Source of the DNA: Promicromonospora sukumoe
GTDB lineage: Bacteria; Actinomycetota; Actinomycetes; Actinomycetales; Cellulomonadaceae
Direction of reading: 5' to 3'
NCBI RefSeq assembly: GCF_014137995.1
Contig: NZ_JACGWV010000001.1
Location: forward strand, 248,001-312,000
Length of the DNA: 64,000 bases
The notes below the pieces were generated by a model. It had not been told where the DNA came from. It saw nothing but the letters and a program-made list of their open reading frames with translations, and did not search any database. This document shows, in pieces, positions 7,983 to 25,340 of this stretch (position 1 is its first letter; each line of letters opens with the position of its first letter). Made by a program: the position numbers and the translations under genes.

Positions 7983-8109
7983 GAGGCGTATCGGCCGCTT
8001 GTAGCATCAGGTCACCAATGGCGCATCCCGAACTCCGGCACCTTACCTTTCGCGCCTGGCGGGTGCCCTTCTCACACTTTGCTTTCGGGCAGACAAGGAC
8101 ATTCTTGCC

Positions 8110-10014
8110 GTGAAGGATCGTGCGCCAGGCGTGGTGCTCCGGCTCCGTCGCGCCGCGTGGCACCTCCGGCACGGCGGGATGGACCAGCTGCGCACGTATC
8201 TGCGCAGGCAGCGCGTCCCGATGGCCGGCCAGGTGGGCGGTGCGCGCCGGACGAAGGACGGCCTGACGTTCGACCCGTGGCCGGCCCGGCCGGTGTCCGG
8301 CCTGGCGGCTGACGGACCGCGTGACCTGCGCGTCGGCGTCGTCCTGGACGACTTCTCGCGGCTGGCGTTCGCACCCGAGTGGCACCAGGTGGCGCTGACC
8401 CCGAAGACCTGGCGGGACGACCTGGCGGCGGGCCTGGACCTGCTCTTCGTGGAGTCCGCGTGGAACGGCAACGGCGGCGCGTGGCAGTACCACCTGACGG
8501 GGACGTCGGCCCCGCGACCCGCGTTCGTCGAGCTCGTGGAGGCCTGCCGCGCGGCGGGTGTGCCGACGGTGTTCTGGAACAAGGAGGACCCGGTCCACTT
8601 CGAGGACTTCCTCGACACGGCCCGGCTGTTCGACCGCGTCTACACCACCGACGTCGACCGCCTGCCCGCCTACGTCGAGGCCCTCGGGCACGACCGCGTC
8701 GGGGTGCTGGAGTTCGCCGCGCAGCCCGCGATCCACAACCCGGTGCGGCTGCACGGCCGCGGCCCGGAGCGTGACGTCGCGTTCGCCGGCATGTACTTCG
8801 CGCACAAGTACCCGGAGCGGCGCGAGCAGATGGACCTGCTGCTCGGTGCGGCGCTCGACGTCTCGCCCAAGATGGAGCACGGCCTGGAGATCTTCAGCCG
8901 GTTCCGGGGCAAGGACGAGAAGTACCAGTTCCCGGCCCCGCTCGACGGCCGCGTCGTCGGCTCGCTCGATTACGACCGCATGCTGACCGCCTACCGCGAG
9001 TACAAGGTCTTCCTCAACGTGAACTCCGTGGTCGGCTCGCCGTCCATGTGCGCACGGCGGATCTTCGAGATCACGGCCTCCGGCACGCCCGTCGTCTCCA
9101 CGCCGAGCGCGGCCGTGGGGGAGTACTTCCCGGGCGACGAGGTCTTCGTCGCCGGCAGCCGTGAGGCCGGTGCGCACACGATCCGGGCGCTCGTCCGCTC
9201 GCCGGAGCTGCGCGACCGCGCGGTGCACAAGGGCCAGCGCCGCATCTGGCGCGAGCACACCTATGCGACGCGCTCGCAGAAGGTGCTGCACGACGCCGGG
9301 CTGGTCACCTCTCCTGTCGTCCCCCGGCCGAGCGTGACCGCCCTGGTCTCCACGAACCGCCCGCACCAGCTCGACCACGTCCTGGAGGTTCTCGGGGCCC
9401 AGCAGGCGGTGGACCTGCAGGTCGCGCTCCTGACGCACGGCTTCGAGACGGACGACGCCGACCTGCGCGCCCGCGCCAAGGAGGCGGGCGTCGGGACGCT
9501 GGAGCTGCTGACCGCGCCGTCCGACGTGCCGCTGGGCGCCTGCCTGAACCTGCTGCTCGACGCGGCCGACGGCGACGTCGTGGCCAAGATCGACGACGAC
9601 GACCTGTACGGCCCGCAGTACCTCTCCGACCAGCTCTACGCCCTGGCGTACTCGGGCGCGGACGTGGTGGGCAAGCAGGCGCACTACATGTACCTGGAGG
9701 GTTCCGACGCGACGATCCTGCGGTTCGCCGACCGGGAGCACCGGTACACCGACCGCGTGATGGGACCGACGATCGTCGCCGCCCGCGCGGCCGCCGACGG
9801 CGTGCGGTTCCGGGCGCTCGAACGCGGCGAGGACACGGCGTTCCTCGCCGACCTCGTCGAGGCGGGCGGCACCGTCTACTCCGCCGACCGGTTCAACTTC
9901 GTCCAGGTGCGGTCCGCCGTGGACGGGCACTCCTGGACGGTCAGCGACGCCGAGCTGCTCGCGAGCGGCGAGGTCCAGCACTTCGGACGTGCGGCGACGC
10001 ACGTCATGTTCTGA
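8110..10014 (+). CDS. Two-domain glycosyltransferase (CgeB-like plus GT2)
   Basis: The 634-residue cytoplasmic protein opens the plus-strand polysaccharide operon. Residues of about 70-380 resemble the CgeB/spore-protein glycosyltransferase domain (Glyco_trans_1_2), with AGMYFAHKYPERR, LNVNSV and the nucleotide-binding-end pattern RRIFEITASGTPVVSTPS. From about residue 400 a GT2-type domain follows, with the DxD-like acidic cluster KIDDDDLYGPQYL. Acceptor and donor cannot be read from the sequence. It starts at GTG 8110, without a clear ribosome binding site, and wecC follows after 19 bases. Confidence 0.8.
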   Translation: MKDRAPGVVLRLRRAAWHLRHGGMDQLRTYLRRQRVPMAGQVGGARRTKDGLTFDPWPARPVSGLAADGPRDLRVGVVLDDFSRLAFAPEWHQVALTPKTWRDDLAAGLDLLFVESAWNGNGGAWQYHLTGTSAPRPAFVELVEACRAAGVPTVFWNKEDPVHFEDFLDTARLFDRVYTTDVDRLPAYVEALGHDRVGVLEFAAQPAIHNPVRLHGRGPERDVAFAGMYFAHKYPERREQMDLLLGAALDVSPKMEHGLEIFSRFRGKDEKYQFPAPLDGRVVGSLDYDRMLTAYREYKVFLNVNSVVGSPSMCARRIFEITASGTPVVSTPSAAVGEYFPGDEVFVAGSREAGAHTIRALVRSPELRDRAVHKGQRRIWREHTYATRSQKVLHDAGLVTSPVVPRPSVTALVSTNRPHQLDHVLEVLGAQQAVDLQVALLTHGFETDDADLRARAKEAGVGTLELLTAPSDVPLGACLNLLLDAADGDVVAKIDDDDLYGPQYLSDQLYALAYSGADVVGKQAHYMYLEGSDATILRFADREHRYTDRVMGPTIVAARAAADGVRFRALERGEDTAFLADLVEAGGTVYSADRFNFVQVRSAVDGHSWTVSDAELLASGEVQHFGRAATHVMF

Positions 10015-10033
10015 CGCAAGGAAGAGAGAGCTC

Positions 10034-11293
10034 ATGGGAATCAGCACCGTCGCGGTGGTCGGCCTCGGGTACATCGGCCTGCCCACGGCCGCGATCCTCG
10101 CCGCCAACGGCGTCCCGGTGACGGGCGTCGACGTGAGTTCCGCGACCGTGGGCGCGGTGAACCGCGGCCAGGTGCCCTTCGTCGAGCCCGACCTGGCCGG
10201 ATACGTATCAGATGCGGTCTCCTCCGGCCGGCTGCGTGCCGTGTCGGCGCCGGAGCCGGCGGACGCGTACATCGTGGCCGTGCCCACCCCCTTCATGGAC
10301 GACCACAAGCCGGACCTCTCCTACATCGAGGCTGCGGCGCGAGCGATCGCGCCCGTGCTGCGCGGCGGCGAGCTGATCGTCCTGGAGTCCACCTCCCCGC
10401 CCGGGACCACGCGGCGCATGGCGGAGTGGGTGCTGGACCAGCGGCCCGACCTCAGCCTCGACGCCTCGGGCGACCGGCCCGTCGTCTACTTTGCGCACTG
10501 CCCCGAGCGGGTCCTGCCCGGCCGGATCATGGTCGAGATGGTCACCAACGACCGCATCGTGGGCGGCCTGACCCCCGAGGCCGCGCAGCGGGCCCGCGAG
10601 CTGTACCAGGTGTTCTGCCAGGGCGAGATCCTGCTGACCGACGCCGTGACCGCCGAGACGGCCAAGCTCGTCGAGAACTCGTTCCGCGACGTGAACATCG
10701 CCTTCGCCAACGAGCTGTCGCTCGTCGCGGACAAGCTGGGTGTCGACGTCTGGGAGCTCATCCGGCTCGCCAACCACCACCCGCGGGTCAACATCCTGCA
10801 GCCCGGCCCCGGTGTGGGCGGGCACTGCATCGCCGTCGACCCGTGGTTCATCGTGGACGCGGCGCCCGAGGAGGCACGCCTGATCCGGACGGCGCGCGAG
10901 GTCAACGACGCCAAGCCGCGCTGGGTGCTGCACAAGGTCGTCGACGCGGTCGCGGACCTCGGCGTGCCGAACCCGGTGATCGCCGCCTACGGGCTGGCCT
11001 TCAAGCCGAACATCGACGACCTGCGTGAGTCGCCGGCCATGGAGATCACCACCGAGATCGCGCGGACCTTCCCGCACGCGACGGTGCTGGCCGTCGAACC
11101 GCACGTGGACGAGCTTCCGGCGGAGCTCGCCGGCCTGGCGAACGTCCGGCTGGCGGGCACCGAGGAGGCGGTGGACACCGCCGATGCGCACCTGCTGCTC
11201 GTGGACCACACGGTCTTCCGGTCGGTCGTGGAGCGGCTCGCGGGGAAGAACGTTGTCGACACGCGGGGAATGACGGCGGGTCTGCACCGGTGA
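10034..11293 (+). CDS. wecC: UDP-N-acetyl-D-mannosamine dehydrogenase
   Basis: The 419-residue NAD-dependent dehydrogenase oxidises UDP-ManNAc to UDP-ManNAcA. It has the Rossmann motif VGLGYIGLP at residues 9-17, VPTPF, ESTSPPGTTRRMAEWVL, HCPERVLPG, and the catalytic-cysteine segment GVGGHCIAVDPWF; these patterns separate WecC from UDP-glucose dehydrogenase. The ATG at 10034 has a purine-rich AAGGAAGAGAG upstream. WecB, which makes its substrate, is encoded in the opposing operon at 18974-20167. The stop overlaps the next start. Confidence 0.93.
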   Translation: MGISTVAVVGLGYIGLPTAAILAANGVPVTGVDVSSATVGAVNRGQVPFVEPDLAGYVSDAVSSGRLRAVSAPEPADAYIVAVPTPFMDDHKPDLSYIEAAARAIAPVLRGGELIVLESTSPPGTTRRMAEWVLDQRPDLSLDASGDRPVVYFAHCPERVLPGRIMVEMVTNDRIVGGLTPEAAQRARELYQVFCQGEILLTDAVTAETAKLVENSFRDVNIAFANELSLVADKLGVDVWELIRLANHHPRVNILQPGPGVGGHCIAVDPWFIVDAAPEEARLIRTAREVNDAKPRWVLHKVVDAVADLGVPNPVIAAYGLAFKPNIDDLRESPAMEITTEIARTFPHATVLAVEPHVDELPAELAGLANVRLAGTEEAVDTADAHLLLVDHTVFRSVVERLAGKNVVDTRGMTAGLHR

Positions 11294-12786
11294 CTGCCAT
11301 GCAGTGGCTCCGACCGGTCCTGGACCGCAGGCACGTGGCCTACGCCGTCGTGGCTGCTTTGGGCCTGGTCCTGCTCGAGCTGGGCGACGGCGCCTGGGGC
11401 CTGGTCGGCGGTGCGGCCCTCGTCGTCGCGGTGCTCGTCTGGGCGGCCGACCTGCAGACGAAGTCGGTCCGTCGCAACGATGTGGCGACCCTGCGTCTGC
11501 GCCGCGTCGAGACGGACGTCAAGGCGCTCGCCGGCAGTGCGGCGTACGCGTCGACCACGCTCAGCGCGGTACGGACCGCATCCGAGCAGGCACGTCGCGC
11601 CGCGGAGAGCGGTGGTGGGTCGCCCTCAGCGGCCGACCTGGAGCGCCCCGCCGGCGAGGTGACCCGGCCGCGGGTCCTCTTCGTGACGAGCAACGGGTCC
11701 GGGATGGGGCACCTGACCCGCCTCATGGCGATAGCCGGCGCCGGGCGCGAGCAGTTCGACAGCGTCTTCGTCTCGTTGTCGACCGCCGCCGAGGTCGCTG
11801 CGCTGAACGGTTTCCCGACCACACGTGTCGAGAGCCAGGGTGCATCCGGTCTGACGTGGGCGGAGTGGAACCGCCGGTTCGCCCGGGTGATGCGGGACCA
11901 GATCAGCGCTCATCGGCCGTCCGCCGTCGTCTTCGACGGCGTCCAGGTCTTCCGGGGCGTGCACGAGGCAGCGGACGAGGCGGGGATTCCCCTGGTCTGG
12001 GTGTGCCGCGGGCTCTGGAAGAAGTCTGTGCCGCGCGAGCAGCTCCACGGGTGGCGGGACGTCGTGTCGAAGGTGATCGTGCCCACGGAGCGGCCCGTCC
12101 TCCCGGACACGACCGCAGCTCCGGTCGACGACCCCGACATCGAGCTCGTCGACCCGATCACCCTGGTGCACCCTGACGGGCTGATGGCGAAGGACGCTGC
12201 GATGGAGCACCTCGGCCTGGACCCGTCGCAGCACCACGTCCTGATCCAGCTCGGATCGGGAGCACTGGGCAGCCGTGCAGCGCAGGAAGCAGCCGCGGTC
12301 GCCGCGGTACGAGAGCTGGGTCCCCGGTGGGTGCCGGTCGTCTTCCGGTCGCCGCTGGCGCCCGACCGGGACGGTGGGGACGTCAGGATCGTGCGCGAGT
12401 ACCCCATGTCCAGGCTGCTCAAGGCGTTCGAGTTCAGTGTGACGTCCGCCGGCTACAACACGGTCCACGAGAACCTTCGGCTGGACCAGCCGGCCGTCTA
12501 CGTCCCTGACCACAACATGCTCGCCGACGACCAGCGTGCCCGTGCCGCCGCCGCCGCCAGCGCGGGCCTGGGCTACCTGGCCGAGACCGAGGACGACATC
12601 GTCCGTGCCGTCCGAGACCTGTCGGCCGACGACCGGCGGCACCAGATGGTGGACCTCCTCGGCGACCACCACGTGGGCAACGGCGCTCAGGACGCAGCGC
12701 GGATGGTTGCCGATATGACCATGACCGGTGGGCGGCCTGGCCTCGCCCACGAATTCTTCTACGGGGTAGGGGCTGAGCAGAAGTGA
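11290..12786 (+). CDS. Membrane-anchored GT-B glycosyltransferase, MurG/GT28-like
   Basis: The 498-residue protein has two hydrophobic segments within residues 15-55, a polar linker, and a GT-B fold domain from about residue 125. LFVTSNGSGMGHLTRL is the glycine-rich acceptor-side motif common to MurG and related nucleotide-sugar transferases. QLGSGALGS, and SAGYNTVHENL near residue 395, form the donor-binding half. It starts at GTG 11290 overlapping the wecC stop (GTGA), so translational coupling is likely; ATG 11299 is an alternative. It probably adds a sugar to the lipid-linked polymer at the inner membrane face. Confidence 0.75.
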   Translation: MTAMQWLRPVLDRRHVAYAVVAALGLVLLELGDGAWGLVGGAALVVAVLVWAADLQTKSVRRNDVATLRLRRVETDVKALAGSAAYASTTLSAVRTASEQARRAAESGGGSPSAADLERPAGEVTRPRVLFVTSNGSGMGHLTRLMAIAGAGREQFDSVFVSLSTAAEVAALNGFPTTRVESQGASGLTWAEWNRRFARVMRDQISAHRPSAVVFDGVQVFRGVHEAADEAGIPLVWVCRGLWKKSVPREQLHGWRDVVSKVIVPTERPVLPDTTAAPVDDPDIELVDPITLVHPDGLMAKDAAMEHLGLDPSQHHVLIQLGSGALGSRAAQEAAAVAAVRELGPRWVPVVFRSPLAPDRDGGDVRIVREYPMSRLLKAFEFSVTSAGYNTVHENLRLDQPAVYVPDHNMLADDQRARAAAAASAGLGYLAETEDDIVRAVRDLSADDRRHQMVDLLGDHHVGNGAQDAARMVADMTMTGGRPGLAHEFFYGVGAEQK

Positions 12787-15593
12787 AGAAGTTGTTGTCC
12801 GGACCAGGAATCGTGGTCGCCGTGGCGATCGCCGCGTTCATCGGGCTGACGTTCGTCGGTGTCTCGTCCGGCGCCTACGGAGACGTGTTCCTCGGCGCAC
12901 TGGTCCTCTCGGCCATCCTCGTGGGCGTGCTCAACCGGCGGGTGCTGTGGGCGGTGCGGGGCGAGCAGCGCCAGCAGTCGAGCCGTATCAACGCCATCAA
13001 CAGCCGTACGTCCGACACCAAGCAGCTCGTCGCCAAGGTCCAGCCGGTCAAGCCGACCCTGGCGGGTGGCGAGATCGAGAAGGTGCGGAAGATCGGGGCG
13101 GACAACGAGTACGCCCGGCGGGTCGGCCTCTCCGGGGCAGGCATGATCGAGACGTACGCCCTCCAGAACCGGTCGGAAGCGGCTCGGGACGTGCTCGCTC
13201 GTGCGGCGTCGAACGGCCGCTACGACGCCGCACGGCTGATCATCCTGATCAAGACGCTTCAGCGTGATCACAAGTCGAAGGCGGCGCGCGACTTCTTCGG
13301 GACGCTCGAGGTGCGCCCGCTGCTCTCGCTGGCGAAGGTCATGGCCCAGCAGAACTTCCACTCCTCCGACCAGTACGACGCGGTGATGGTCTACAAGGCG
13401 GTCGTGGGGCGGCACGGCGGAACCGTGTTCCACCGGGCCGATCGCCTCGTGTTCCTGGAGCTGCTCGCATCCATGCGGTGGGTCAAGGACGTCGAGAAGT
13501 ACGCGAGGCTGCTCAAGATCGATCGCTTCGACCCGGTCCAGCGGCACCTTCTCCGTGCGGACGCGGTCAACCCGTTCCGGGACGGCACGGAGGACGACTC
13601 GGACCCTGTCGTTCAGACGTGGCTCGAGTCCGTCAACGCCGCCTTCGACGTCGACGGTGTGGAGCACATCGGGATCGCGCCGGGCATCGGCGCCGCGATC
13701 GACCGGATCTCGTGCGTGCCGGCGTACCCGGTCGAGGACGGTCCGCTGGTGACGGTGATCATGCCGACCTACGCACCGGACGAACGTATCCGGACTGCCC
13801 TGGCGTCCGTGCTCGGCCAGTCGTACCGCAACCTGCAGGTCCTTCTCATGGATGACGCGTCACCGAGCGAGAGCGCCGCCTACCTGGACACGCTCGCCGC
13901 GCAGGACCCGCGCGTGACCGTCGTGCACCTCCCGGAGAACCGCGGGACCTACAAGGCCCGGAACATCGCCGTGACCGAGTACGCCACGGGTGAGTTCGTC
14001 ACGGTTCACGACGACGACGACTGGTCGCACCCGCGGAAGGTCGAGCTGCAGGTGAAGCACCTGCAGGAGAACCCGGACGAGCCCGCCAACCTCTCGCTCC
14101 TGTCGCGGGCGACGCCGGAGCTGCAGTTCGTGCGGATCAACAACAACGCGCTGTTCAGCCAGCCCAACTACTCGTCCCTGATGTTCCGTCGGACGGTCTT
14201 CGACGAGCTCGGCTTCTGGGACGTGGCGAACCGGAGCGCCGACGCGGAGATGCACGACAGGGTCCGGAGCTTCACCGGCCGGCCCATGCCCGTCGTCGGG
14301 ACGTCGCCGCTCTCCTTCCTGCGGGTGCGCGCCGAGTCGCTGACCTCGGGCGAGATCAACAAGGGCTACTTCGACACCCGGCGCATGTGGTACCAGCGGA
14401 TCTACCGTGCCTGGCACGAGGCGCGACTCGAGTCCGGCCAGCCGATGTATGTCGGCCCCGACGTCCGGGGCGACCGGCCGTTCGCCGCCCCGGCCGGCCT
14501 GCTGGGCGCCAAGAGCTCCACCGACGTCCTCACGGTCGACGTGGTCTACGCGACCGACTTCCGGTTCCCGGGCGGCAACTCGTCGCTTTCCGCACGCGAG
14601 GTGACGGCCCTGGTCGAGCGTGGCTACCGCGTCGCGCTGCTCCAGCTGGACTCGCCCCTGCTGAGCGCGATGAACGTGCTGCACAAGGAGTTCGTGGACC
14701 TGGCGGAGCACGACAACGTCCACCTGGTCTCGACCCTCGACGCGGTCGAAGCCGACCTGACGATCGTTCGTCATCCCACCGTGCTGCAGTACATCCGGCC
14801 GGACCAATCACGGATCTCGACCCAGAACCTGGTGGTCATCTTCAACCACCCGCCGTTCGAGTCCGACCTCACGGGCGCCGTCTACGACGTCTCGGACGTG
14901 CTGAACAACGCCGAGTCGGTCTTTGGAGTCGCGCCCCGCGTCGCACCTGAGTCGGGTCTGCTGCGCAGTCTCCTCAGGGGCGCTGTCGACCCGTCGCGGT
15001 TCCTCCCGGATGACTGGAACGGGATCGTGGAGGTCGGTCATGGAACCGTGCGCTCCGTGGACGAGAAGCGCCGGCCCGTGATCGGCCGGCACTCGCGCGA
15101 CCACATCCAGAAGTGGCCCGCGGCTTCCGTGCTGAACACGGTCTACCCGCAGGACGGCTCGCGGGACGTCCGCGTGCTCGGCGGTGCGTTCTTCGCGGAG
15201 CAGCGGCTCGGTGGCCCCGTCAAGGGCTGGACCGTGTACCCCTTCGGCGCCAAGCCGGCCCAGGAGTTCCTCGACGAGGTCGACTTCTGGGTCTACTTCC
15301 ACGGCGACGAGTGGTACGAGTCGTTCGGGATGGCGATCGCCGAGGCCATGGCCAGCGGTCTTGTGGTCATCCTGCCGAAGTACATGAAGGCGACGTTCGG
15401 CGAGGGCGCCCTGTACTGCGAGCCCGACCAGGCGCTCAGGCTGGTGGACAGCTTCTGGAGCGACCCCGAGGCGTACGCGGCGCAGAGCAAGAAGGCTCTG
15501 GAGTACTCCCGGGCTCACTTCGGCGAGGATGCCCTGATGGAGCGTGTGGGTTCGCACCTGTCCGGACGCCAGCCAGTCGATCTTGGAGCATGA
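12783..15593 (+). CDS. Large membrane-anchored glycosyltransferase (GT2 plus GT4-like domain)
   Basis: The 936-residue protein starts with two membrane helices (about residues 8-55), followed by a helical region to about 310. A GT2 domain follows (VTVIMPTYAPDE; the DxD-type HDDDDW) to about residue 550. The C-terminal 330 residues look like a GT-B domain ending in a GT4-like site, with FGMAIAEAMASGLVVILP. Two catalytic domains in one chain suggest it adds two sugars or polymerises a repeat. It starts at GTG 12783, overlapping the previous stop. Confidence 0.8.
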   Translation: MKKLLSGPGIVVAVAIAAFIGLTFVGVSSGAYGDVFLGALVLSAILVGVLNRRVLWAVRGEQRQQSSRINAINSRTSDTKQLVAKVQPVKPTLAGGEIEKVRKIGADNEYARRVGLSGAGMIETYALQNRSEAARDVLARAASNGRYDAARLIILIKTLQRDHKSKAARDFFGTLEVRPLLSLAKVMAQQNFHSSDQYDAVMVYKAVVGRHGGTVFHRADRLVFLELLASMRWVKDVEKYARLLKIDRFDPVQRHLLRADAVNPFRDGTEDDSDPVVQTWLESVNAAFDVDGVEHIGIAPGIGAAIDRISCVPAYPVEDGPLVTVIMPTYAPDERIRTALASVLGQSYRNLQVLLMDDASPSESAAYLDTLAAQDPRVTVVHLPENRGTYKARNIAVTEYATGEFVTVHDDDDWSHPRKVELQVKHLQENPDEPANLSLLSRATPELQFVRINNNALFSQPNYSSLMFRRTVFDELGFWDVANRSADAEMHDRVRSFTGRPMPVVGTSPLSFLRVRAESLTSGEINKGYFDTRRMWYQRIYRAWHEARLESGQPMYVGPDVRGDRPFAAPAGLLGAKSSTDVLTVDVVYATDFRFPGGNSSLSAREVTALVERGYRVALLQLDSPLLSAMNVLHKEFVDLAEHDNVHLVSTLDAVEADLTIVRHPTVLQYIRPDQSRISTQNLVVIFNHPPFESDLTGAVYDVSDVLNNAESVFGVAPRVAPESGLLRSLLRGAVDPSRFLPDDWNGIVEVGHGTVRSVDEKRRPVIGRHSRDHIQKWPAASVLNTVYPQDGSRDVRVLGGAFFAEQRLGGPVKGWTVYPFGAKPAQEFLDEVDFWVYFHGDEWYESFGMAIAEAMASGLVVILPKYMKATFGEGALYCEPDQALRLVDSFWSDPEAYAAQSKKALEYSRAHFGEDALMERVGSHLSGRQPVDLGA

Positions 15594-15594
15594 G

Positions 15595-16392
15595 TTGCCT
15601 CTTCAGACATCGGCTACTGACGTGACGACGACTCGCGTGTACATCTATGGCTCGTGCGTCACACGTGACGGTGTGGACTTCTGGGAGCAGTACGGGTTAG
15701 AGCTCGTGGGCTACACCGCCCGTCAGTCGCTCATCTCAGTCGGCCAGCCGGCGCGACGCGACCTGTTCGAGACGAGCCAGATCGCTTCGTCCTTCCAGCG
15801 CCGCATGGCGGAGGCTGACATCGCAGGGAACGTCGGGGACCAACTTGTGGCGAAGGCTGATGGTTACGACCTGGTGCTCTGGGATCTCACGGACGAGCGC
15901 CTTGGTGTCGTCGAAGTGCCAGAAGGTGGGGTCGTCTCGCGCGTCGTGCCCTATGAGAAGGGCATCTATCGTGGCGAGGGCCGACTTGGAGTCCCGACCC
16001 GGCTCGGGGACGCGGCACACTCTCGCCGATGGCGTGAGGCTGCATCACGTTTCGTGGAGCGCCTGAACGAGGCGGGCGTAGCGGATCGAATCGTCGTCAA
16101 CGCAACACCGTGGGCGGAGCACGACGAGTCGGGTGCCGTTCTTTCTTCCGGCGTGCCCGCTCCGAAGATCTTCAATGACCTCATGGTCGACTACTACGGG
16201 TATCTGCGGTCGTTGGGCCTGAGAGTTGCCGACGTCGACGCCAGCCGGGCCATAGCGCGGGCTGACCACAAGTGGGGTCTGGCGCCTTTTCACTACGTGG
16301 ACGACACCTATCGCGCATCGATCGAGAGCGCTTTGAGCGCCGCAGGTCTCAAGCTCTCGCCGGACCACCCGACACCGAAAGAAGACCAATGA
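15595..16392 (+). CDS. DUF6270 protein, stand-alone copy
   Basis: The protein of about 265 residues is a single DUF6270 domain. It shares with the N-terminus of the gene at 17319-18977 the motifs YIYGSCVTRD, ARQS, DLTDERLG and W-G-x-A-P-F-H-Y. A Ser in Gly-Ser-Cys near the N-terminus and a late His are compatible with a divergent SGNH-type fold, but that is inference and no activity is established. The TTG at 15595 is chosen because GGAG lies six bases upstream and the preceding gene ends at 15593; GTG 15622 is possible. GC is visibly lower than in the genes upstream. Confidence 0.75.
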   Translation: MPLQTSATDVTTTRVYIYGSCVTRDGVDFWEQYGLELVGYTARQSLISVGQPARRDLFETSQIASSFQRRMAEADIAGNVGDQLVAKADGYDLVLWDLTDERLGVVEVPEGGVVSRVVPYEKGIYRGEGRLGVPTRLGDAAHSRRWREAASRFVERLNEAGVADRIVVNATPWAEHDESGAVLSSGVPAPKIFNDLMVDYYGYLRSLGLRVADVDASRAIARADHKWGLAPFHYVDDTYRASIESALSAAGLKLSPDHPTPKEDQ

Positions 16393-17234: not shown

Positions 17235-17261
17235 GTCGATGCCGTGTCCGGTCGGTTCGGT

Positions 17262-17304
17262 GTGAGAAGGGGCGGGGTTCGTCGTGAACCCCGCCCCTTC
17301 TCAC
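17262..17304. terminator. Bidirectional terminator between the converging polysaccharide operons
   Basis: Perfect 19-bp arms (17262-17280 and 17286-17304) enclose a five-base loop. It lies 27 bases after the rhamnosyltransferase stop and 14 bases from the end of the minus-strand operon. The stem is very GC-rich and no U-tract is present. Confidence 0.85.
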
Positions 17305-17318
17305 TGTCCCGCGATCGG

Positions 17319-18977
17319 TCAGCTCGGCATGTTTCGAGATACGACCGACTTGAGATCGGACCACGCGTCGAGCCGGCGCCCGACGATGTGTTCGATAAAC
17401 GAGATATCGCTCTTGTACAGCTCGTGGAGCAAGCTCAGCTCCTGGGCTGACACCGGGTTCTTCTTGCGGAGCTGATCGGCCGCTGTGCTGCGGTTCTCAC
17501 GCCGGTTCAGGGTCGTCTTGTTCCAGAACTCCTGAGTGTCAGCGACACCGAGAATCGAAAGTGCCTGACGCACGTATCCGGCGGGGTCGTCGATGATGTC
17601 GTCGTAGACGAGGACGTGCACACGTTCTGGCCCGACCGTGTTGGCCCAGTGCTCGTAGTGGCGCTGGTAGAAGCCGAGGTCGATGATGCCGGTAGACGCC
17701 GGCGCGCGGAAGATACTCCCGCGAAGGTCAAGGTTTCCGCTGATCATGTTGTGCCAGTAAGCGGAGACTGCTCGCGAAACTGGATCTCGGAGCGAGAGGA
17801 TGACCGGTGTCTGAGGGTCGAGGTGGTCGCGGACAGCAGCCGCGGCATCTTCACGCTTCGGTGAGTAGTGGTTCGCCAGACCCTGCCAGAAGTACAGGAC
17901 TGACCGCTCGCCCCGCAGACGATGATCGCGCCCCTTCTGGAACTCCTTGAGGTACTTGGTCGTCTCGTCCTCGCTCGTGTACTTCTTGCTCGAGCTGAAG
18001 AAGCCGCTGGCCTTGCTCGACGCCATGAAAATCTCGGGGTGGTAGGACAGCTGCTTGCCGAGCCACGCGGTGCCGCCTCGGTGTGTGCCAGCGATCAAGA
18101 AGTTGGGCCCACTGTGCCGAAGGTCGAGAGGAACGGACGATGCCGGGCGTTCTTCCGGGGAACGCTCGCTGACCACGGCTCGAGTGGGTGTGCTGGTCGC
18201 GGTCTTCTGGGAGGACGGCAACGCTCCCGGCCCCCACACCACCCTTCCCTCGGTCCCCGTCAGCCGGCGCACCGTCTCCAGGTACACCTTCTCCGCGTAG
18301 TGGAACGGCGCGTCCCCCCACGGGTGGTGCGGCCCGGACATGACCTCGGCAGGGTCCAGCGATACCACGTGCGCGCCCAGCGCCTGGGCCGCGACCTGGA
18401 TGTAGGGCCGGAAGATCGAGTTGGCGTCCGCGGCCTTCACCCCGAAGCTGTCCGGCGTCTGCGTGCCGCTCTCGGACCACTCCGCCCACGCGAGGTCGAG
18501 CAGCACGACGGTCGCCTGCGGCATGTAGTGCTGGAAGCGCTCGCCGATGTAGTTCATCGCCGTCGACCAGTACTCGAAGTGCTGCTGGGTGCCGAACGCG
18601 ATGTGCTGGCTGCCCTGGGGCAGGTACTGCTCCGCGCCGGACTCGATGAGCTCGACCGAGCGCGTCACCATGGACCCGTCGGGCAGCAGATAGGCGCCGA
18701 GCCGCTCGTCGGTCAGGTCCACGAGCACCAGGTCCGTGGCCGAGCCGTGCGTCGAGAGCAGCGACCGGAGGCTGGACGAGAAGTCGCCGGTGACCATCCG
18801 CTGCTGGAACCGGGACTCCAGCGTGGGCGGGGCCATGAGCTCGACCGGCTTCGTGTACGCGCTGAGCACCGACTGCCGGGCCACGTACTCGACGAGCTCG
18901 AACTGCACCGGATCGAAGTGCTCGAACGTGTCCCGTGACACGCACGAGCCATAGATAAAGACCCTGGTCTTGCTCAT
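17319..18977 (-). CDS. DUF6270-sulfotransferase fusion protein
   Basis: The 552-residue protein fuses two domains. Residues 1-245 are DUF6270 (FIYGSCVSRD, ARQSVLS, DLTDERLG, WGDAPFHY). After a Ser/Thr/Pro-rich linker (250-288), residues 290-552 form a PAPS-dependent sulfotransferase: the 5'-phosphosulfate loop is GTHRGGTAWL (297-306) and the 3'-phosphate motif is SLRDPVSRAVSAYWHN (395-410). Sulfation of the exported glycan, or of a lipid-linked intermediate, is the simplest proposal. The ATG at 18977 overlaps the wecB stop. GC drops from about 72% (43 of 60, 18661-18720) to 58% (35 of 60, 17401-17460) near the domain junction. Confidence 0.85.
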   Translation of the reverse strand: MSKTRVFIYGSCVSRDTFEHFDPVQFELVEYVARQSVLSAYTKPVELMAPPTLESRFQQRMVTGDFSSSLRSLLSTHGSATDLVLVDLTDERLGAYLLPDGSMVTRSVELIESGAEQYLPQGSQHIAFGTQQHFEYWSTAMNYIGERFQHYMPQATVVLLDLAWAEWSESGTQTPDSFGVKAADANSIFRPYIQVAAQALGAHVVSLDPAEVMSGPHHPWGDAPFHYAEKVYLETVRRLTGTEGRVVWGPGALPSSQKTATSTPTRAVVSERSPEERPASSVPLDLRHSGPNFLIAGTHRGGTAWLGKQLSYHPEIFMASSKASGFFSSSKKYTSEDETTKYLKEFQKGRDHRLRGERSVLYFWQGLANHYSPKREDAAAAVRDHLDPQTPVILSLRDPVSRAVSAYWHNMISGNLDLRGSIFRAPASTGIIDLGFYQRHYEHWANTVGPERVHVLVYDDIIDDPAGYVRQALSILGVADTQEFWNKTTLNRRENRSTAADQLRKKNPVSAQELSLLHELYKSDISFIEHIVGRRLDAWSDLKSVVSRNMPS

Positions 18978-20167
18978 GCTCCACCCTCTGCAGTAACGGC
19001 AGTGAATTCTTCGTCCAGCACGAGGTCCGGCAGCAGGCCGGGCAGCACGGGCGCGAGCATCCGCGCCGTGGCGTCCAGCACGCGGCCCGCGCTGCGACCG
19101 TCGCCGTACGGGTTGATGGCCTGCGCCATGAGCTCGTAGGCGGCGTCGTCGGTCATCAGCCGGTGTACCTCGGCCACGATGCGGTCCTCGCCGGTGCCGA
19201 TCAGGCGTGCGGTACCGGCCTCGACCGCCTCGGGGCGCTCCGTGTTCTCGCGCATGACGAGCACGGGCTTGCCCAGGCTGGGCGCCTCCTCCTGGAGCCC
19301 GCCCGAGTCGGTGAGCACCACCGTGGACAGGGACAGCAGGTGCGTGAACTCGCCGTAGCCGAGCGGCTCGGTCACGAGGACGTTCGCCAGCCCGTCGAGG
19401 TGCGGCAGGACGGCGTCGCGCACCACGGGGTTGCGGTGCACCGGCAGCACGATCGCGGACTCGGGGAACCGCCGTGCGATCCGCGCCAGCGCGCGGCCCA
19501 CGCCCTCCATGGCCGCGCCCCAGTTCTCCCGGCGGTGCGTCGTCACGAGCACGATCCGGCGGCCCGACGCCGCGACGCGCGCGAGGGCCGGGTCCGTGAA
19601 CGCCGTCCGGCGCTCGACGGCGAGGTACAGGGCGTCGATGACGCTGTTGCCCGTCACCACGATGTCCTCCAGCGGCACGCCCTCGCCCACCAGGTTGGCC
19701 AGGCTGCGCAGGGTCGGCGCGAGGTGCAGCGAGGCGATCTGCGACGTGATCTTGCGGTTCGCCTCCTCCGGGAACGGCGACTGGATGTCGCCGCTGCGCA
19801 GACCCGCCTCCAGGTGGACCACGGGGATCTGCCGGTAGAACGCGGCCAGCGCGGCGGCCGTCGACGTCGAGGTGTCGCCCTGCACGATGACGGCGTCGGG
19901 CCGGCGGGCCTCCAGGATCGGGTCGAGCCGGGCCATGACGCGCGCGAAGATCTGCCCGAGCGTCTGGCCGTGGCTCATGATGTCGAGGTCGTGGTCGGGC
20001 ACGATGCCGAAGACCTCGTTGACCTGGTCGAGCATCTCCCGGTGCTGGCCGGTCACGACCGTCACCGAGTCGAACCGGCTGTCGGCCTCCAGGGCCGCGA
20101 CGACCGGGGCCACCTTGATGGCCTCCGGACGCGTCCCGTAGACCGTCATGACGAGGGGTCTGCTCAC
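18974..20167 (-). CDS. wecB: UDP-N-acetylglucosamine 2-epimerase (non-hydrolysing)
   Basis: The 397-residue GT-B-fold enzyme converts UDP-GlcNAc to UDP-ManNAc. It shows VYGTRPEAIK at the N-terminus, TGQHREMLDQV, QGDTSTSTAAALAAFY, HLEAGLRSGD, PFPEEANRK, THRRENWG, and LTDSGGLQEEAPSLGKPVLV, all family hallmarks. GTG 20167 is chosen because AGGAG lies six bases upstream and overlaps the stop of the ABC gene (GTGA). Its product is the substrate of WecC, encoded in the opposing operon. Confidence 0.95.
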   Translation of the reverse strand: MSRPLVMTVYGTRPEAIKVAPVVAALEADSRFDSVTVVTGQHREMLDQVNEVFGIVPDHDLDIMSHGQTLGQIFARVMARLDPILEARRPDAVIVQGDTSTSTAAALAAFYRQIPVVHLEAGLRSGDIQSPFPEEANRKITSQIASLHLAPTLRSLANLVGEGVPLEDIVVTGNSVIDALYLAVERRTAFTDPALARVAASGRRIVLVTTHRRENWGAAMEGVGRALARIARRFPESAIVLPVHRNPVVRDAVLPHLDGLANVLVTEPLGYGEFTHLLSLSTVVLTDSGGLQEEAPSLGKPVLVMRENTERPEAVEAGTARLIGTGEDRIVAEVHRLMTDDAAYELMAQAINPYGDGRSAGRVLDATARMLAPVLPGLLPDLVLDEEFTAVTAEGGA

Positions 20168-21303
20168 AGGTCGCTCCTTTCCGCACGGATGGCCGCGGCG
20201 CGCTCCGCGGCGGCCCTGGCCTGCTTGGCGTCGCGGCCGGTCGGCCGTGCGTGCCGTTCCCGCACCCGGCCGCGGGGCGGCTCGGGCACGTCGAACCGCA
20301 CCTGCGTCTCGCGGCGCTCGGCGAACGCCTCCTCGAGGATCCGCTTGGCCTCCTCGGGCTTGTCCTTCGCGAAGGCCCACGCCCACTTGCGGTAGCGGAC
20401 GGCGACGTCCTGCGCCTCGCCGTCGAGCACCAGCCGGCCGTGGTGCAGCCAGATGGCGCGGGTGCAGGACTCCTCGATGGTCTGCGCGGCGTGGCTCACC
20501 AGGAACACCGTGCCTGCCTGCTCGCGCAGCCGGGTCATCCGGGCCTCGCTGCGCTCCTTGAACGCGGCGTCGCCGGTGGCCAGGGCCTCGTCGATGAGCA
20601 GGATGTGCGGGCGCGCCGCCGTCGCGATGGCGAAGCGCAGGCGCGCCGCCATGCCTGAGGAGTAGGTGCGCATGGGCAGGTAGATCGACTTGCCCAGGCC
20701 GGCCAGCTCGATGACGTCGGGGATCGCGGCCTCGGCCTCGGCGGGGGACAGGCCCATCGCGAGGCAGCCGAGGCGCACGTTCTCCTCGCCCGGCAGGTCG
20801 GGCACCAGGGCGGCGTTGACGCCGATGAGCACGGGCGTGCTCTCGGCCAGCACCTGGCCCTTGGTGGGCTTCTCCAGCCCCGCGATGATCCGCAGCAGCG
20901 TGCTCTTGCCCGAGCCGTTCTGCCCCACGAGGCCGATCTGCTCGCCGGAGTTGGCGACGAACGAGATGTCCGTCAGCGCGCGCACCGTCACCTTGGGCTC
21001 CTGGCCCAGGACGTTCAGCACGGCGCGCTTCACCTTGGCGCGGCGGCCGTGGCTCGTGTCCGTGGACGGCGTCCGGTAGAACATCCGCAGGCCCTGCACG
21101 GCCACCGTGGGCCACAGCACCGGCGTGCTCCCGGACCTCGGCCCGACGGTGGCGAGCTGACCGGTGTGCGGCGGGGCCTGCACGGACATCGGGATCGCGC
21201 CGGTGGCCGGCCGCTGGGCCGCCTGGGCCGGCAGCGGCATCGACGCGGGGCCGTTCTGGCCGATCGGCGACGGTGGCATGGGGTAGTCGAGATCAGCGGC
21301 CAT
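20164..21303 (-). CDS. wzt: Polysaccharide ABC exporter, ATP-binding subunit (Wzt-like)
   Basis: The 379-residue protein has a Pro-rich N-terminal extension of about 65 residues before the ATPase domain. Walker A is GQNGSGKST, the signature is SSGMAARL, Walker B is HILLIDEAL, and the H-loop is LVSHA. The order and the SSGM signature are typical of the TagH/Wzt group that exports teichoic acids or O-antigen-like polymers. A basic, Arg/Ala-rich C-terminal tail of about 60 residues follows. It overlaps the permease gene by 11 bases and is translated in the same operon. Confidence 0.92.
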   Translation of the reverse strand: MAADLDYPMPPSPIGQNGPASMPLPAQAAQRPATGAIPMSVQAPPHTGQLATVGPRSGSTPVLWPTVAVQGLRMFYRTPSTDTSHGRRAKVKRAVLNVLGQEPKVTVRALTDISFVANSGEQIGLVGQNGSGKSTLLRIIAGLEKPTKGQVLAESTPVLIGVNAALVPDLPGEENVRLGCLAMGLSPAEAEAAIPDVIELAGLGKSIYLPMRTYSSGMAARLRFAIATAARPHILLIDEALATGDAAFKERSEARMTRLREQAGTVFLVSHAAQTIEESCTRAIWLHHGRLVLDGEAQDVAVRYRKWAWAFAKDKPEEAKRILEEAFAERRETQVRFDVPEPPRGRVRERHARPTGRDAKQARAAAERAAAIRAERSDL

Positions 21304-22195
21304 AGCTCTCCTCCGCCCGCCAGAAGACGACGAACCCGATCACCAGCGTGCCGACGGCCCAGCCGCCCAGCACGGCCCAGCGCATCGGGTCGGGCGTCGT
21401 CGCGTACAGGACGCAGTCCCGCACGATGTCGAGCACGATGAACATGGGATTCAGCTCCAGCCACACCTTCAGGTCGGGGTTGTTCGCCAGGAGCCTGTCG
21501 AACGAGAAGAACACCGCCGACCCGTACAGCCAGACGCGCATGGTCATCCCGATGAGGTTGGTGATGTCCGGCAGCGCGGCGGCCCACCGGGCCACCAGGA
21601 GCGCCAGCCCGGTGGTGAACATGACCTGGAGCGCCAGGGCGCCCGCCACCAGCGCGATGCGCCAGGTGTACTCCTCGGCCGGGGGCACGAAGTAGATGAG
21701 CGCGGCGAGCGTGACCAGCGTGGGGCCCAGGTTGAGCAGGTTGCGCAGCACCACGGAGATCGGCAGCGCGGCGCGCGGGAACGTGAACGCCCGGATCAGG
21801 TTCTTGCCCTGCTGCACGGAGCGTGCACCGCCGTTGATCGACTGCGTGGTGAACTGGAACAGGAACACGCCGATCAGCAGGTACCCGATGAAGTTCTCGA
21901 TGCCGCGCGAGTTGTTCATGAGCAGCCCGAACACGAGGAAGTACACCGCCCCGTCGATCAGAGGGTTCAGCACCAGCCAGGCCTTGCCCAGCAGGCTCTG
22001 CCGCGTCCCGCTGGACACCTTCGCCCGCGCGTCCGCCCACAGGAAGTGGCGGCGCTCCCACAGGAGCCGCACGTACTGCCCCAGCGGCGGACGCGCTCCC
22101 ACGCGCGACAGGTTGCCGAGCGTCACCAGCTTCGTGGTCGTCGGCGACGCGTCGAACAGCTCCGCGTACGAACCGGTCTCCGGTCCCGCGCTCAT
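21293..22195 (-). CDS. wzm: Polysaccharide ABC exporter, permease subunit (Wzm-like)
   Basis: The 300-residue membrane protein is an ABC-2 type permease with about six membrane helices, preceded by a soluble N-terminus of some 65 residues. The segments LLGKAWLVLNPLIDGAVYFLV and LELNPMFIVLDIVRD match TagG/Wzm permeases. With Wzt it would move the completed lipid-linked glycan across the membrane to the LCP enzymes. The ATG at 22195 overlaps the stop of the preceding transferase gene (ATGA), giving a coupled operon. Confidence 0.92.
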   Translation of the reverse strand: MSAGPETGSYAELFDASPTTTKLVTLGNLSRVGARPPLGQYVRLLWERRHFLWADARAKVSSGTRQSLLGKAWLVLNPLIDGAVYFLVFGLLMNNSRGIENFIGYLLIGVFLFQFTTQSINGGARSVQQGKNLIRAFTFPRAALPISVVLRNLLNLGPTLVTLAALIYFVPPAEEYTWRIALVAGALALQVMFTTGLALLVARWAAALPDITNLIGMTMRVWLYGSAVFFSFDRLLANNPDLKVWLELNPMFIVLDIVRDCVLYATTPDPMRWAVLGGWAVGTLVIGFVVFWRAEESYGR

Positions 22196-23922
22196 GCCGT
22201 CACCCCCAGGCAGCTCCGGTAGACGCCCAGGTAGGTCTCCGCGTTGCGCACCCATGTCCTCTCGGTAGCCACCCCACGGCCGAGCTCCACCAGCTCGGCC
22301 CGCCTTTCGCCGTCGGCCAGGAGCGTGCCGACGGCGTCGGCCCAGCCCTCCAGGTCGTCGGCGTCGACGTGCAGTCCCGCGCCGCCCACGGCCTCGACGA
22401 GCGCGGGCAGCGCGCTCGCCACGACCGGCCGCCCCACCGCCATCGCCTCGACCGGCTTCAGCGGCGTCACCAGGCGCGTCACCTCGTGGTCGCGCCGCGG
22501 CACCAGCACCACGTCGAGCGCGGCCAGCCAGGTCAGCGCGACGCCGGGCGGCACCCGCCCGGGCAGCACCACGTGGTCGGCCACGCCGAGCTCGCGCGCG
22601 AGCCGCGCCAACCCCGGCCGGGACACGCCGTCACCCACCAGGAGGCCCGTCACGTCCTGACCACGCGCACGGAGCGTCGCGACCGTACGGACCACGGTCT
22701 CCAGGCCCTCGTAGTCGACCAGGCTGCTCACCGTGCCGATGGCCGGGCCCGCGGGCAGGCCCAGGGCCGCCCGCGCCGCCTCCGGCGTCGGGTGCTCCGC
22801 CGCGAGCAGCGCGTCCGGCACCGCGTTCGGCACCACGGTGATCTTCCCGGCGGGCACCCCGCGCGCCACGAGCGCGTCGCGCATCGTGCCGCTGAGCGTC
22901 ACCACCGCGTCCGCGGCCAGCGCCAGCTCGGTCTCCTTCGCCTGCATCAGCGCCCGACGGCGGGACGACGCCGCCCGCGCCCGCGCCTCGGCCGTGCCCT
23001 GCGCGGCCACCCAGGTCTCCTCGGGCAGCCCCCGCACCTCGTAGACCCACGGGATGCCGAGCCGCCCAGCCGCCGCGCGTGCCAGCGACCCGACGGCCGA
23101 CGGCGTCGTCGTGTGCAGCACGTCCGCCCCCGCCTCGCGCGCCGCCTCGACCAGCAGCTCCGTCTCCTGGGCGGCACGCCGCGCGGGGTCGGACGTCGCG
23201 CGCGCCGGGACGAGCCGGCGGTAGGCGACGCCGTCCACGACGTCGGTCCCGCGCGCCGCGAGCGACCCGATGGTCAGCGGGTAGCCAGGCCGCGTCGTCG
23301 CCGACGCCGCGAGCCCGTGGGCGCGCTGCGCCACCAGGATCGCGTGCGAGCGCAGCGTGTACCCGCTCTGCGTGTGCGGCAGTGAGTTGGTCAGGTGGTG
23401 CAGCACGGTGACAGGACCGGAGCGCCCGACGGCGCTCGCGGCCGGTCCCGCACCCTCGGACGGGACGTCCCGCGGCCCGGGCCGCAGGTCGGCGACCTGG
23501 GCGCGCAGCCCGGCCGGTGCGTCCGGCCCGATCGATTCGACGTCGCCCAGCAGCCAGGCGGCGCGGTAGCGCGCGGGACCCGCCGCGGGCACGCCGTCCA
23601 CCAGCTCGGGCCGGCCCACCGCGACGGCGACCTCGGCCGCGATCCGCTGCCCCCGGCCGCCGGGACGCGCCAGCAGGCGTTCGGCCTCGCTCGCGGCACC
23701 CGTGGCGTCGCCCGCGAGCAGCAGGCCCAGCGCGTGCCGCGCGGACGGGGCGGGCGCGAGGTTCAGTGCGCCCACCAGCGGCCGGCGTACCCGCTCGGGA
23801 GCGCGCCGGGCGGCCTGGACGGCGAGCCAGAGCGGGTCCTCGACGACGGTGCGGGCCACGAAGGACGTGGTGAAGCGCAGGTTGCGCGCGAGCTCGCCCG
23901 CGCGCCGGAACGGTCGTGCCAT
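22192..23922 (-). CDS. GT4-family glycosyltransferase with N-terminal helical extension
   Basis: The 576-residue protein has a helical, Arg/Ala-rich N-terminal part of about 170 residues and a GT4 domain from about 180. Features include HHLTNSLPHTQSGYTLRS in the N-terminal Rossmann half, WVYEVRGLPEETW, VPNAVP, GTVSSLVDYEGLETV and the nucleotide-sugar-binding TPLKPVEAMAVGRPVVAS. This places it with retaining GT4 enzymes; the sugar is unknown. It overlaps both neighbours: its ATG overlaps the upstream stop (TGATG) and its stop overlaps wzm. Confidence 0.85.
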   Translation of the reverse strand: MARPFRRAGELARNLRFTTSFVARTVVEDPLWLAVQAARRAPERVRRPLVGALNLAPAPSARHALGLLLAGDATGAASEAERLLARPGGRGQRIAAEVAVAVGRPELVDGVPAAGPARYRAAWLLGDVESIGPDAPAGLRAQVADLRPGPRDVPSEGAGPAASAVGRSGPVTVLHHLTNSLPHTQSGYTLRSHAILVAQRAHGLAASATTRPGYPLTIGSLAARGTDVVDGVAYRRLVPARATSDPARRAAQETELLVEAAREAGADVLHTTTPSAVGSLARAAAGRLGIPWVYEVRGLPEETWVAAQGTAEARARAASSRRRALMQAKETELALAADAVVTLSGTMRDALVARGVPAGKITVVPNAVPDALLAAEHPTPEAARAALGLPAGPAIGTVSSLVDYEGLETVVRTVATLRARGQDVTGLLVGDGVSRPGLARLARELGVADHVVLPGRVPPGVALTWLAALDVVLVPRRDHEVTRLVTPLKPVEAMAVGRPVVASALPALVEAVGGAGLHVDADDLEGWADAVGTLLADGERRAELVELGRGVATERTWVRNAETYLGVYRSCLGVTA

Positions 23923-25232
23923 CAGTAGCGAGCCCCTCGATCGGCGCGCCCGGGCAGCAGCGGGTGGGGGAGCAGCTCGTCGAGCAGCTCCGCGTACCGG
24001 TGCCCGAGCACCTCGTCGCTCGCGTGCTCGGCGACCCAGGCGGCGGCGTCGGGCGAGGCGGCGGGGACGACGCCGTCGGACAGCCAGCCGCACCACAGGT
24101 CGGCGAGGCCCTCGACGTCGCCGGGGGGCACGACGGCGCCCGCGCCGTTCGCCGAGACCAGGCTCGCCGCCTCGCCCGCCAGGCACGCGGAGGCGACGAC
24201 GCCCGAGGCCATCACCTCGTACAGCTTGGACGGCACGGTCCACTCGAACGGGGCCCAGTCCCGCAGGGACACGATCACGGTGTCGGCCCAGGCGTACAGC
24301 TCGCGCACCTCGGTGGACGGCACGGACGGCTCCACCCGCACGGGGGCGCCCAGCTCGGCCGTCAGCCGGCGCAGCGGCTCCAGCTCGTTGCCGTGGCCCA
24401 CGATCCGCACGTCGATCGCGTACCCGCGCTCCTGGACCAGGGCGGCGGCGCGCACGGCGACGTCCAGACCCTGCGAACGGCCGACGGTGCCGGCGTACAC
24501 GACGCGCAGCGGCCGGTCCGCCAGGGGCACCGGGGCGTGCTCCCGGACCGGCTCGAACGCCGTGCCGTTACGTACCACCGCGACATTCCGGACACCACGG
24601 GAGCGCAGCACCTCGGCGAACGCCGCCGTCGTCGTGACCACCAGGTCCGCCCGGGCCTGCAGCCGGGTGACGGTGCGGCGCACCACGCGCGCGGCGAGGT
24701 CGCGCAGCACGCGGCGCAGGTCGCCCGCGCGGCCCCGGCGCAGCAGGATGCCGCTGGGCTCGATGAGGTCGGGCCAGGCGTCGCGCATCTCGACGATCAG
24801 GTGGGCCCGGTGCCACCGGGCGAGCGCCCAGCCCGCCAGGACGCTGGGAATCCCGGGCACGGTGGCGATGACCACGGCGGGCCGTCCGGCGGAGGGCCGC
24901 ACACCGCGCAGCACCGAGCTCACGGCGGCCACGAGCTGGTCCGCGACGCGCGATCCGAGCCCATGGGAATGCTCACGGAAATTCACCCGGATGATCTTCT
25001 CGCCATTGCTTCCCTCGCTTACCGAACCGGGCAGGAAAGCGGGTGAATAATGGGTGATCTTTCCCGAGGGGTAGTGCGGCGGGGGTGTCAGGACGGTTAC
25101 CGGATAACCGGCCGGTACGAGGTGCCCGGACAGGGCTCCCCACCGCCTCTGCGGGGCACCCGTCTCGGGTGCGTAATGGTGTGTGACCAGGAGGATCGCG
25201 CGGTTCTGCTGTCGTCTGACGCGTGCGACCAC
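23922..25232 (-). CDS. GT4-family glycosyltransferase, WbuB-like; first gene of the minus-strand operon
   Basis: The 436-residue enzyme carries the N-terminal pattern LLVTHHYAPETGAPQRRWG and the PPPHYPSGKI segment typical of WbuB-type transferases. IVEMRDAWPDLI follows, and the C-terminal half has VYAGTVGRSQGLDV, GHGNELEPL and PSKLYEVMASGVVASA. WbuB-type enzymes commonly transfer N-acetylamino sugars to lipid-linked chains. GTG 25232 has GGGGAG seven bases upstream. It is divergent from the second LCP gene, so the 122 bases between 25233 and 25354 carry two promoters. Confidence 0.87.
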   Translation of the reverse strand: MVARVRRQQNRAILLVTHHYAPETGAPQRRWGALSGHLVPAGYPVTVLTPPPHYPSGKITHYSPAFLPGSVSEGSNGEKIIRVNFREHSHGLGSRVADQLVAAVSSVLRGVRPSAGRPAVVIATVPGIPSVLAGWALARWHRAHLIVEMRDAWPDLIEPSGILLRRGRAGDLRRVLRDLAARVVRRTVTRLQARADLVVTTTAAFAEVLRSRGVRNVAVVRNGTAFEPVREHAPVPLADRPLRVVYAGTVGRSQGLDVAVRAAALVQERGYAIDVRIVGHGNELEPLRRLTAELGAPVRVEPSVPSTEVRELYAWADTVIVSLRDWAPFEWTVPSKLYEVMASGVVASACLAGEAASLVSANGAGAVVPPGDVEGLADLWCGWLSDGVVPAASPDAAAWVAEHASDEVLGHRYAELLDELLPHPLLPGRADRGARY

Positions 25233-25340
25233 GCTGACTCCCCTCTCTGTTCGGCGCCTTGTCGAGGCTTACCAGAATTCACCCGCAAGGGCATTCTCCG
25301 GTTGCGGTGCACGCATAAGAGTAGTAGTCGAAATCGCTAC

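Follow-up and report, generated by a model that had tools for sequence, protein, structure and literature searches.

The soil bacterium Promicromonospora sukumoe (genome of 6.5 Mb in four contigs) carries a 17.5-kb locus, bracketed by two genes for LytR-CpsA-Psr (LCP) ligases, that is probably a wall-glycan island whose arms are constant and whose core is variable ("glycotype"), one edge of the core falling inside a gene that fuses a DUF6270 domain to a sulfotransferase. The locus lies in a 64,000-nucleotide (nt) stretch of contig NZ_JACGWV010000001.1 (positions 248,001 to 312,000; hereafter the window, to which all coordinates refer). The initial annotation of this DNA had predicted a glycan of N-acetylmannosaminuronic acid (ManNAcA) and rhamnose with a sulfotransferase-DUF6270 branch; the gene arrangement that it described is confirmed, and its interpretation is supported in part. 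In our best reading, an enzyme with a constant head and an exchangeable tail, located on the border of a core that is itself exchanged, is a more interesting finding than the sugar prediction, with sulfation as one allele. Computation established the arms, the core, the position of its edge, the diversity of the tails, the empty site in island-free relatives, and the fold prediction for DUF6270.

Arms, core, and edges of the island

In 8 of the 11 genus loci compared with the window by blastn (L022, L023, L024, L026, L028, L029, L030, and L031; L, G, and C denote loci, genomes, and contigs), similarity ends at 18222-18227, with an extra short patch of 104 to 169 nt in the tail in three of the eight. 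It runs on through the sulfotransferase tail at 53% identity in L025 and L027, and stops within a divergent head in L032. The shared edge corresponds to residue 251 of the fusion protein and coincides with a domain boundary, since the AlphaFold2 model (predicted template modeling score of 0.52) places a weak stretch, residues 255-283, with a predicted local distance difference test (pLDDT) score below 50, between two confident domains, 1-248 and 285-552. On the WecC side, the edge is found at 11268-11279, at most 25 nt from the WecC stop codon, in 8 of 10 places, and at 11146 and 11213 in the others. The features of the island and its borders are as follows.

6824-7906, plus strand: LCP1, LCP ligase, left island border (PF03816, 134.6 bits)
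7907-25460: whole island, from blastn colinearity with island-free loci L149, L150, and L151
8110-10014, plus strand: GT634, two-part glycosyltransferase of the constant arm (Glyco_trans_1_2; weak GT2 match below cut-off), 80-91% identical in seven genus relatives
9989-11293, plus strand: WecC, UDP-ManNAc dehydrogenase (NF008286, 592.6 bits, cut-off 459), final gene of the constant right arm; its real start is probably near 10034
11272-18225: variable core, about 6.9 kb (from blastn edges, gene content, and GC)
11290-12786, plus strand: GT28-like glycosyltransferase, core (PF04101, 21.0 bits, just under the cut-off of 22), 33-44% identical to its relatives
12783-15593, plus strand: GT2/GT4-like multidomain glycosyltransferase, core (PF00535, 92.4 bits)
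15544-16392, plus strand: D1, stand-alone DUF6270 protein, fifth gene of the plus operon, core (PF19786, 191.4-191.9 bits, cut-off 27.5; domain from about 15643)
about 16389-17234, plus strand: PF11316 "putative rhamnosyl transferase," core (76.3 bits, cut-off 23)
17262-17304: hairpin with 19-bp stem and 5-nt loop, from folding of the inter-operon gap
18977-17319, minus strand: DUF6270-sulfotransferase fusion, 552 residues, last gene of the minus operon (Pfam domains)
17319-18125, minus strand: fusion tail, sulfotransferase, residues 285-552 (PF00685, 45.3 bits, cut-off 22; PF13469, 39.2 bits, cut-off 27)
18129-18215, minus strand: fusion linker, residues 255-283 (AlphaFold2 pLDDT under 50)
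18226-18977, minus strand: fusion head, DUF6270, residues 1-251, constant (PF19786, 222.6 bits, cut-off 27.5)
about 18974-20167, minus strand: WecB, UDP-GlcNAc 2-epimerase, constant left arm (TIGR00236, 448.7 bits, cut-off 210.15)
20164-21303, minus strand: Wzt/TagH-type ABC ATPase (Pfam/NCBIfam), in an allele of the 10 island-bearing genus genomes only
about 21293-22195, minus strand: Wzm-type ABC-2 permease (PF01061, 35.3 bits, cut-off 26.9)
22192-23922, minus strand: GTb, GT4 glycosyltransferase (Pfam scan)
23922-25232, minus strand: GTa, GT4 glycosyltransferase (Pfam scan)
25355-26422, plus strand: LCP2, right island border (PF03816, 138 bits)

Arm identity within the genus is 72-99%, and the gene content of the core differs among close relatives: 12 loci from the 10 island-bearing genomes display 8 core types, one shared by G003 and G004, one by G002 and the second G007 copy, one by the first G007 copy, G009, and G012, and five found once each. 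Some genomes whose arms differ have the core and the tail in common. In 1-kb bins, the GC fraction is 0.61-0.69 at 12-18 kb, in the core, versus 0.69-0.79 in the arms. A survey of 200 genomes of the family found DUF6270 in 43 and yielded 40 fetched regions, with further matches outside these in G081, G194, G105:C41, G113, and, twice, in G190. The order GTa-GTb-Wzm-Wzt-WecB-DUF6270 facing WecC-GT634 recurs among the 40 loci, which also show losses, rearrangements, and loci running past the fetched stretch. The two G007 copies (L028 and L029; G007:C1:1007000-1040900) are tandem glycan cassettes with different cores; the second opens with a GTa fragment, and Wzm, Wzt, and WecB were not found for it in that stretch.

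DUF6270 is present in 10 of the 13 genus genomes, P. sukumoe included, and blastn colinearity shows the island to be missing as one block from the other three (G001, G006, and G011), where a single LCP gene occupies the site of the two in the window. On the left, these genomes are colinear with the window up to 7.9 kb (the G006 contig starts only at 2.8 kb); on the right, colinearity covers 25.4-34.6 kb in G006 and G011 and extends to 32.8 kb in G001, where the contig ends. WecB was matched in none of the three island-free genomes and, in the same search, in three of three carriers. A close WecC is likewise absent, the best other match having 31% identity in two of them and the third having none, as is the Wzt allele of the locus, whose identity among the ten carriers is 90-100%. 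The bracketing LCP genes share 79% DNA and 68% protein identity and have the same orientation, so that the pair looks like a duplicated border. That the lone LCP gene of the island-free genomes is an LCP1/LCP2 chimera was considered and rejected, as the identity profiles contain no clear switch.

Open reading frames and Pfam/NCBIfam scans resolve 8110-25232 into two convergent operons with six genes per strand. As the initial annotation had it, nearly all of these genes overlap (8 of 10 junctions by 1-11 nt; the remaining two, of GT634 with WecC and of GT936 with D1, overlap only when translation is taken from the earliest candidate start codon), WecB is in one operon and WecC in the other (both NCBIfam equivalogs over cut-off), family matches identify Wzm/Wzt ABC export genes, and LCP genes bracket the set. 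The operons had been called "fully overlapping," a loose wording: they do not overlap each other, being separated by 84 nt (17235-17318). The common terminator on which they were said to converge is represented there by a strong hairpin, with a perfect 19-bp stem, -53.4 kcal/mol, and a z score of -7.1 against 200 shuffles. A consensus terminator scan of the gap found no T-tailed terminator, so the label derives from the hairpin, which is the probable bidirectional terminator of both operons. We rejected the hairpin as a shared cassette-end site, since among the fetched loci its 43 nt match this genome's own loci only (E value of 0.01).

DUF6270 heads and their tails

Homologues were sought with the sulfotransferase fusion as query, and the 7,997 candidates sharing most words with it were scored. 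The 120 homologues listed of 126 found, together with 42 genes from the family loci, gave 148 distinct proteins with 131 distinct tails. These fall into 21 groups, which are operational (BLASTP, with half of both tails covered) and may split tails that share one of two domains. They include sulfotransferases, GT2 and GT61 glycosyltransferases, hexapeptide acyltransferases, heparinase-like and epimerase domains, an XcbB/CpsF tail (NF033892, 263 bits, cut-off 125), a second DUF6270 domain, and groups with no Pfam match. In Pfam and NCBIfam, the tail representatives belong to glycan-related or generic enzyme families or have no match, with no toxin family among them. The 42 genes from the family loci comprise 11 with a sulfotransferase tail, 14 without a tail, and 17 with other tails.

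Distinct proteins whose heads share 90% identity or more form 26 pairs, and in 13 of these the two tails belong to different groups. A head tree built quickly under the LG model, with no mixture, from 95 distinct rows with 11 tail states requires at least 33 changes of tail, versus a mean of 36.9 and a minimum of 34 in 200 label shuffles; an earlier tree of 109 rows, including 14 duplicates, gave 33 changes versus a mean of 42.5 and a minimum of 39. By the mismatched pairs and the near-shuffle change count, the kind of tail is almost uncoupled from how the heads are related. Displaced orphan tails like those of Rhs proteins were looked for and rejected: in the 40 family loci the sulfotransferase query, the only kind of tail searched in this way, matches only beside heads. 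Near an intact DUF6270 gene in L045 lies a fragment (about 6016-6132; G034:C11:510515-510631) whose match covers just DUF6270 positions 184-222 and which is possibly a displaced remnant. Protein P0093 has two DUF6270 domains in tandem, and two DUF6270 genes on opposite strands of one locus recur in L091, L099, L100, L114, L121, and L051, as well as in the window.

Structure prediction gives DUF6270 an SGNH fold. The model (AlphaFold2 pLDDT of 95 for D1) has the peptidoglycan O-acetyltransferase PatB as its nearest known structure, and acyltransferases are nearest overall. In a weighted sequence set, G10, S11, D16, D87, E91, T105, and H226 show no variation, and C12 is conserved at 98%; judged by secondary structure, GSC and PFHY occupy the places of the SGNH active site. 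No PDB sequence match was found at E values up to 1. The literature searched yielded no paper on DUF6270 and, as far as titles and abstract openings tell, nothing on this locus.

For the distribution beyond the family, we used 79 named loci from Micrococcales, Actinomyces, Corynebacterium, and Propionibacteriales, drawn from the best 80 of 209 D1 relatives and therefore leaning to D1-like heads. The 69 that exceed 15 kb include 51 with a GT634 relative, 38 with WecC, 47 with WecB or WecC, and 36 with Wzm or Wzt. At least one of Wzm, Wzt, WecB, WecC, and GT634 is present in 61 of the 69; 7 hold none of these and neither GTa nor GTb. The predicted synteny of DUF6270 genes with export genes thus holds. 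Each genus genome has one to three strong Wzt matches (>240 bits) and, by this rough yardstick of matches per genome rather than random regions, the association of DUF6270 with export and ManNAcA genes looks far above chance. These counts tie DUF6270 to wall-glycan loci of the ManNAcA type rather than to sulfation in itself. A sulfotransferase relative is found in only 2 of the 79 loci, a set chosen by likeness to D1, and in 11 of the 42 family-level genes. We therefore reject the sulfotransferase-DUF6270 branch as a fixed pair: both DUF6270 domains named by the initial annotation are there, and its sulfotransferase is not a gene of its own but the C-terminal domain of one of them, one of many exchangeable tails.

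The predicted glycan and competing explanations

Production of UDP-ManNAcA by the locus is well supported at the gene level, as predicted, because the WecB and WecC equivalog models both exceed their curated cut-offs. The case for rhamnose in this polymer is weak: the name of one Pfam family (PF11316) points to it, and rml-type genes are present outside the operons. Sulfate is a plausible decoration in this genome. The tail matches PDB entry 3rnl (1.5e-12), contains motifs for binding the 5'- and 3'-phosphates of 3'-phosphoadenosine-5'-phosphosulfate (PAPS), GTHRGGTAWL and RDPVSRAVSAYW, and has columns G297, W305, R397, and R402 invariant in 57 sequences.

We infer that recombination is the mechanism, what reactions the head and the tail carry out, and that the purpose is to switch glycotype. 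To judge from their families, WecB and WecC would make UDP-ManNAcA, GTa, GTb, and GT634 would build a common stem, and the chain would be exported by Wzm/Wzt and joined to peptidoglycan by an LCP enzyme. The core would supply strain-specific transferases and could be replaced through homologous recombination in the arms, the head staying with the arm and the tail traveling with the core, joined by the disordered linker. The fusion product would then be a two-module decorating enzyme. The most likely target of its head, whether for catalysis or for docking, is the conserved stem that contains ManNAcA; the head is probably an O-acyltransferase or an esterase that relies on the conserved positions Cys12 and His226. 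Its tail would add a strain-specific mark, in this genome most likely sulfate from PAPS. Such switching might serve escape from phages or predators. In its full form, which we put forward tentatively, the proposal is a polymorphic glycan-decoration system: an SGNH-like DUF6270 acyltransferase specific for the ManNAcA stem would steer an exchangeable tail (sulfo-, acetyl-, glycosyl-, XcbB/CpsF-type, or other) to the same glycan, and a crossover in the linker would change the surface chemistry in one event with the operon frame intact.

Several observations weigh against our best reading. Canonical SGNH proteins are marked by the GDS nucleophile motif and the DxxH block; neither is conserved in DUF6270, which has GSC and H-x-W-G-x-A-P-F-H-Y in their place and is therefore called SGNH-like here, not a canonical member. 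By sequence, membership in another known Pfam family had to be rejected, as PF19786 alone is matched even at an E value of 10. In the named loci, 74 of 92 DUF6270 genes have no tail of at least 100 residues, and 14 of 42 at the family level stand alone, so that the head can do without a tail. The fusion used as query biases the homologue tail counts toward sulfotransferases, and sulfotransferase tails occur in several core types, so the tail group alone does not identify the core. In G010 and G008, identity to the window drops soon after the head start, indicating that the head is sometimes exchanged too and that the edge is not fixed. Finally, APS kinase is found in every one of the 13 genus genomes, whether or not they carry the island, which led us to reject PAPS supply as support specific to the tail.

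Could the apparent exchange be ordinary divergence, with rare old gains and losses of tails and cores, fusions fixed by descent, and swapping mimicked by poorly resolved head trees? Trees of one 230-residue domain are indeed weakly resolved (57 of 108 internal nodes are left at a support of 80 in the 109-row tree), and heads may themselves recombine, so that the head tree is not an organism tree. We consider this explanation quite unlikely, because half of the nearest head pairs differ in tail, approximately 24 changes remain in the 109-row tree after branches with support under 95 are collapsed, the edges agree within 6 nt in eight loci, and genomes with different arms share core and tail. 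That DUF6270 is a non-enzymatic binding or membrane-docking module, delivering varied tail enzymes to the export complex, would suit a single head that serves many tail chemistries through a flexible linker. It is doubtful in view of the invariant residues, the motifs at the active-site places, the predicted fold with acyltransferases nearest, and the frequency of stand-alone DUF6270 genes.

The sulfotransferase tail might instead act on a lipid, a small molecule, or this genome's other polymer, of the 3-deoxy-D-glycero-D-galacto-nononic acid (Kdn) type. Sulfated wall glycopolymers, which the initial annotation had regarded as hardly described in Micrococcales, are in fact known in this genus: Promicromonospora citrea is reported to contain a sulfated, pyruvylated Kdn-teichulosonic acid with 3-sulfated glucose (PMC6801904). 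On contig C2 of P. sukumoe, region L147/L148 (G000:C2:583000-622800) combines APS kinase beside cysD-, cysN-, and cysQ-like genes with a second Wzt, NeuB, a CMP-sugar synthetase, and an acyltransferase-SGNH protein. This region, and not the island, fits the Kdn polymer best. A different substrate for the tail is nonetheless unlikely, as the fusion gene overlaps WecB by 4 nt, the tail is exchanged together with the glycosyltransferases of the locus, and APS kinase and the second Wzt persist in the genomes without the island, so that a Kdn-type system does not need the tail. The literature searched contained no paper joining teichuronic acid, sulfotransferase, cell wall, and Actinobacteria.

Relation to known systems

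Surface-glycan loci with a variable core are familiar from streptococci and from Gram-negative bacteria; capsule and O-antigen loci, such as the K loci of Acinetobacter and Klebsiella, have conserved ends and a variable center. The island resembles K loci in that export and sugar genes are conserved at the ends, glycosyltransferase and decoration genes are exchanged in the middle, and the GC content of the core is lower; it differs in its convergent arms and in one core edge lying inside a gene at a domain boundary. Here, such a locus occurs in Micrococcales, and the position of that edge gives one constant head many tails. Like Rhs and contact-dependent inhibition (CDI) polymorphic toxins, the fusion would have a constant N-terminal part and recombining C-terminal enzymes, but its named tails are glycan enzymes.

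ManNAcA has a precedent as a wall-polymer sugar in a member of Micrococcales, the teichuronic acid of Micrococcus luteus, [-4-beta-D-ManNAcA-(1-6)-alpha-D-Glc-1-]n (PMC3005890). The island would differ from that system in its extra variable transferases and decoration enzymes. Like the P. citrea polymer, the predicted product would be a sulfated wall glycopolymer in the same genus; that polymer is Kdn-based and the island is of the ManNAcA type. DUF6270 is unlike PatB and SGNH esterases in having 8% identity, GSC for GDS, no DxxH aspartate, and a fusion to variable tails. The capsule-linked protein WcbI is reported to have a novel fold and no activity alone, with Cys14 at a crevice where strands 1 and 3 end and with acetyl-CoA held by His201 (PMC4104973); DUF6270 may be compared with it in having a conserved Cys after strand 1.

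DUF6270 would thus gain a testable function, and several unmatched tail groups become candidate glycan-modifying enzymes, new ones if the decoration-system proposal is true. Core and tail type could serve as a genomic marker for glycan type in these genera. Outside the island, a 1,173-nt UDP-sugar dehydrogenase segment at 1944-3116 is 98% identical to one at about 610446-611618 of G000:C2, on another contig of the same genome.

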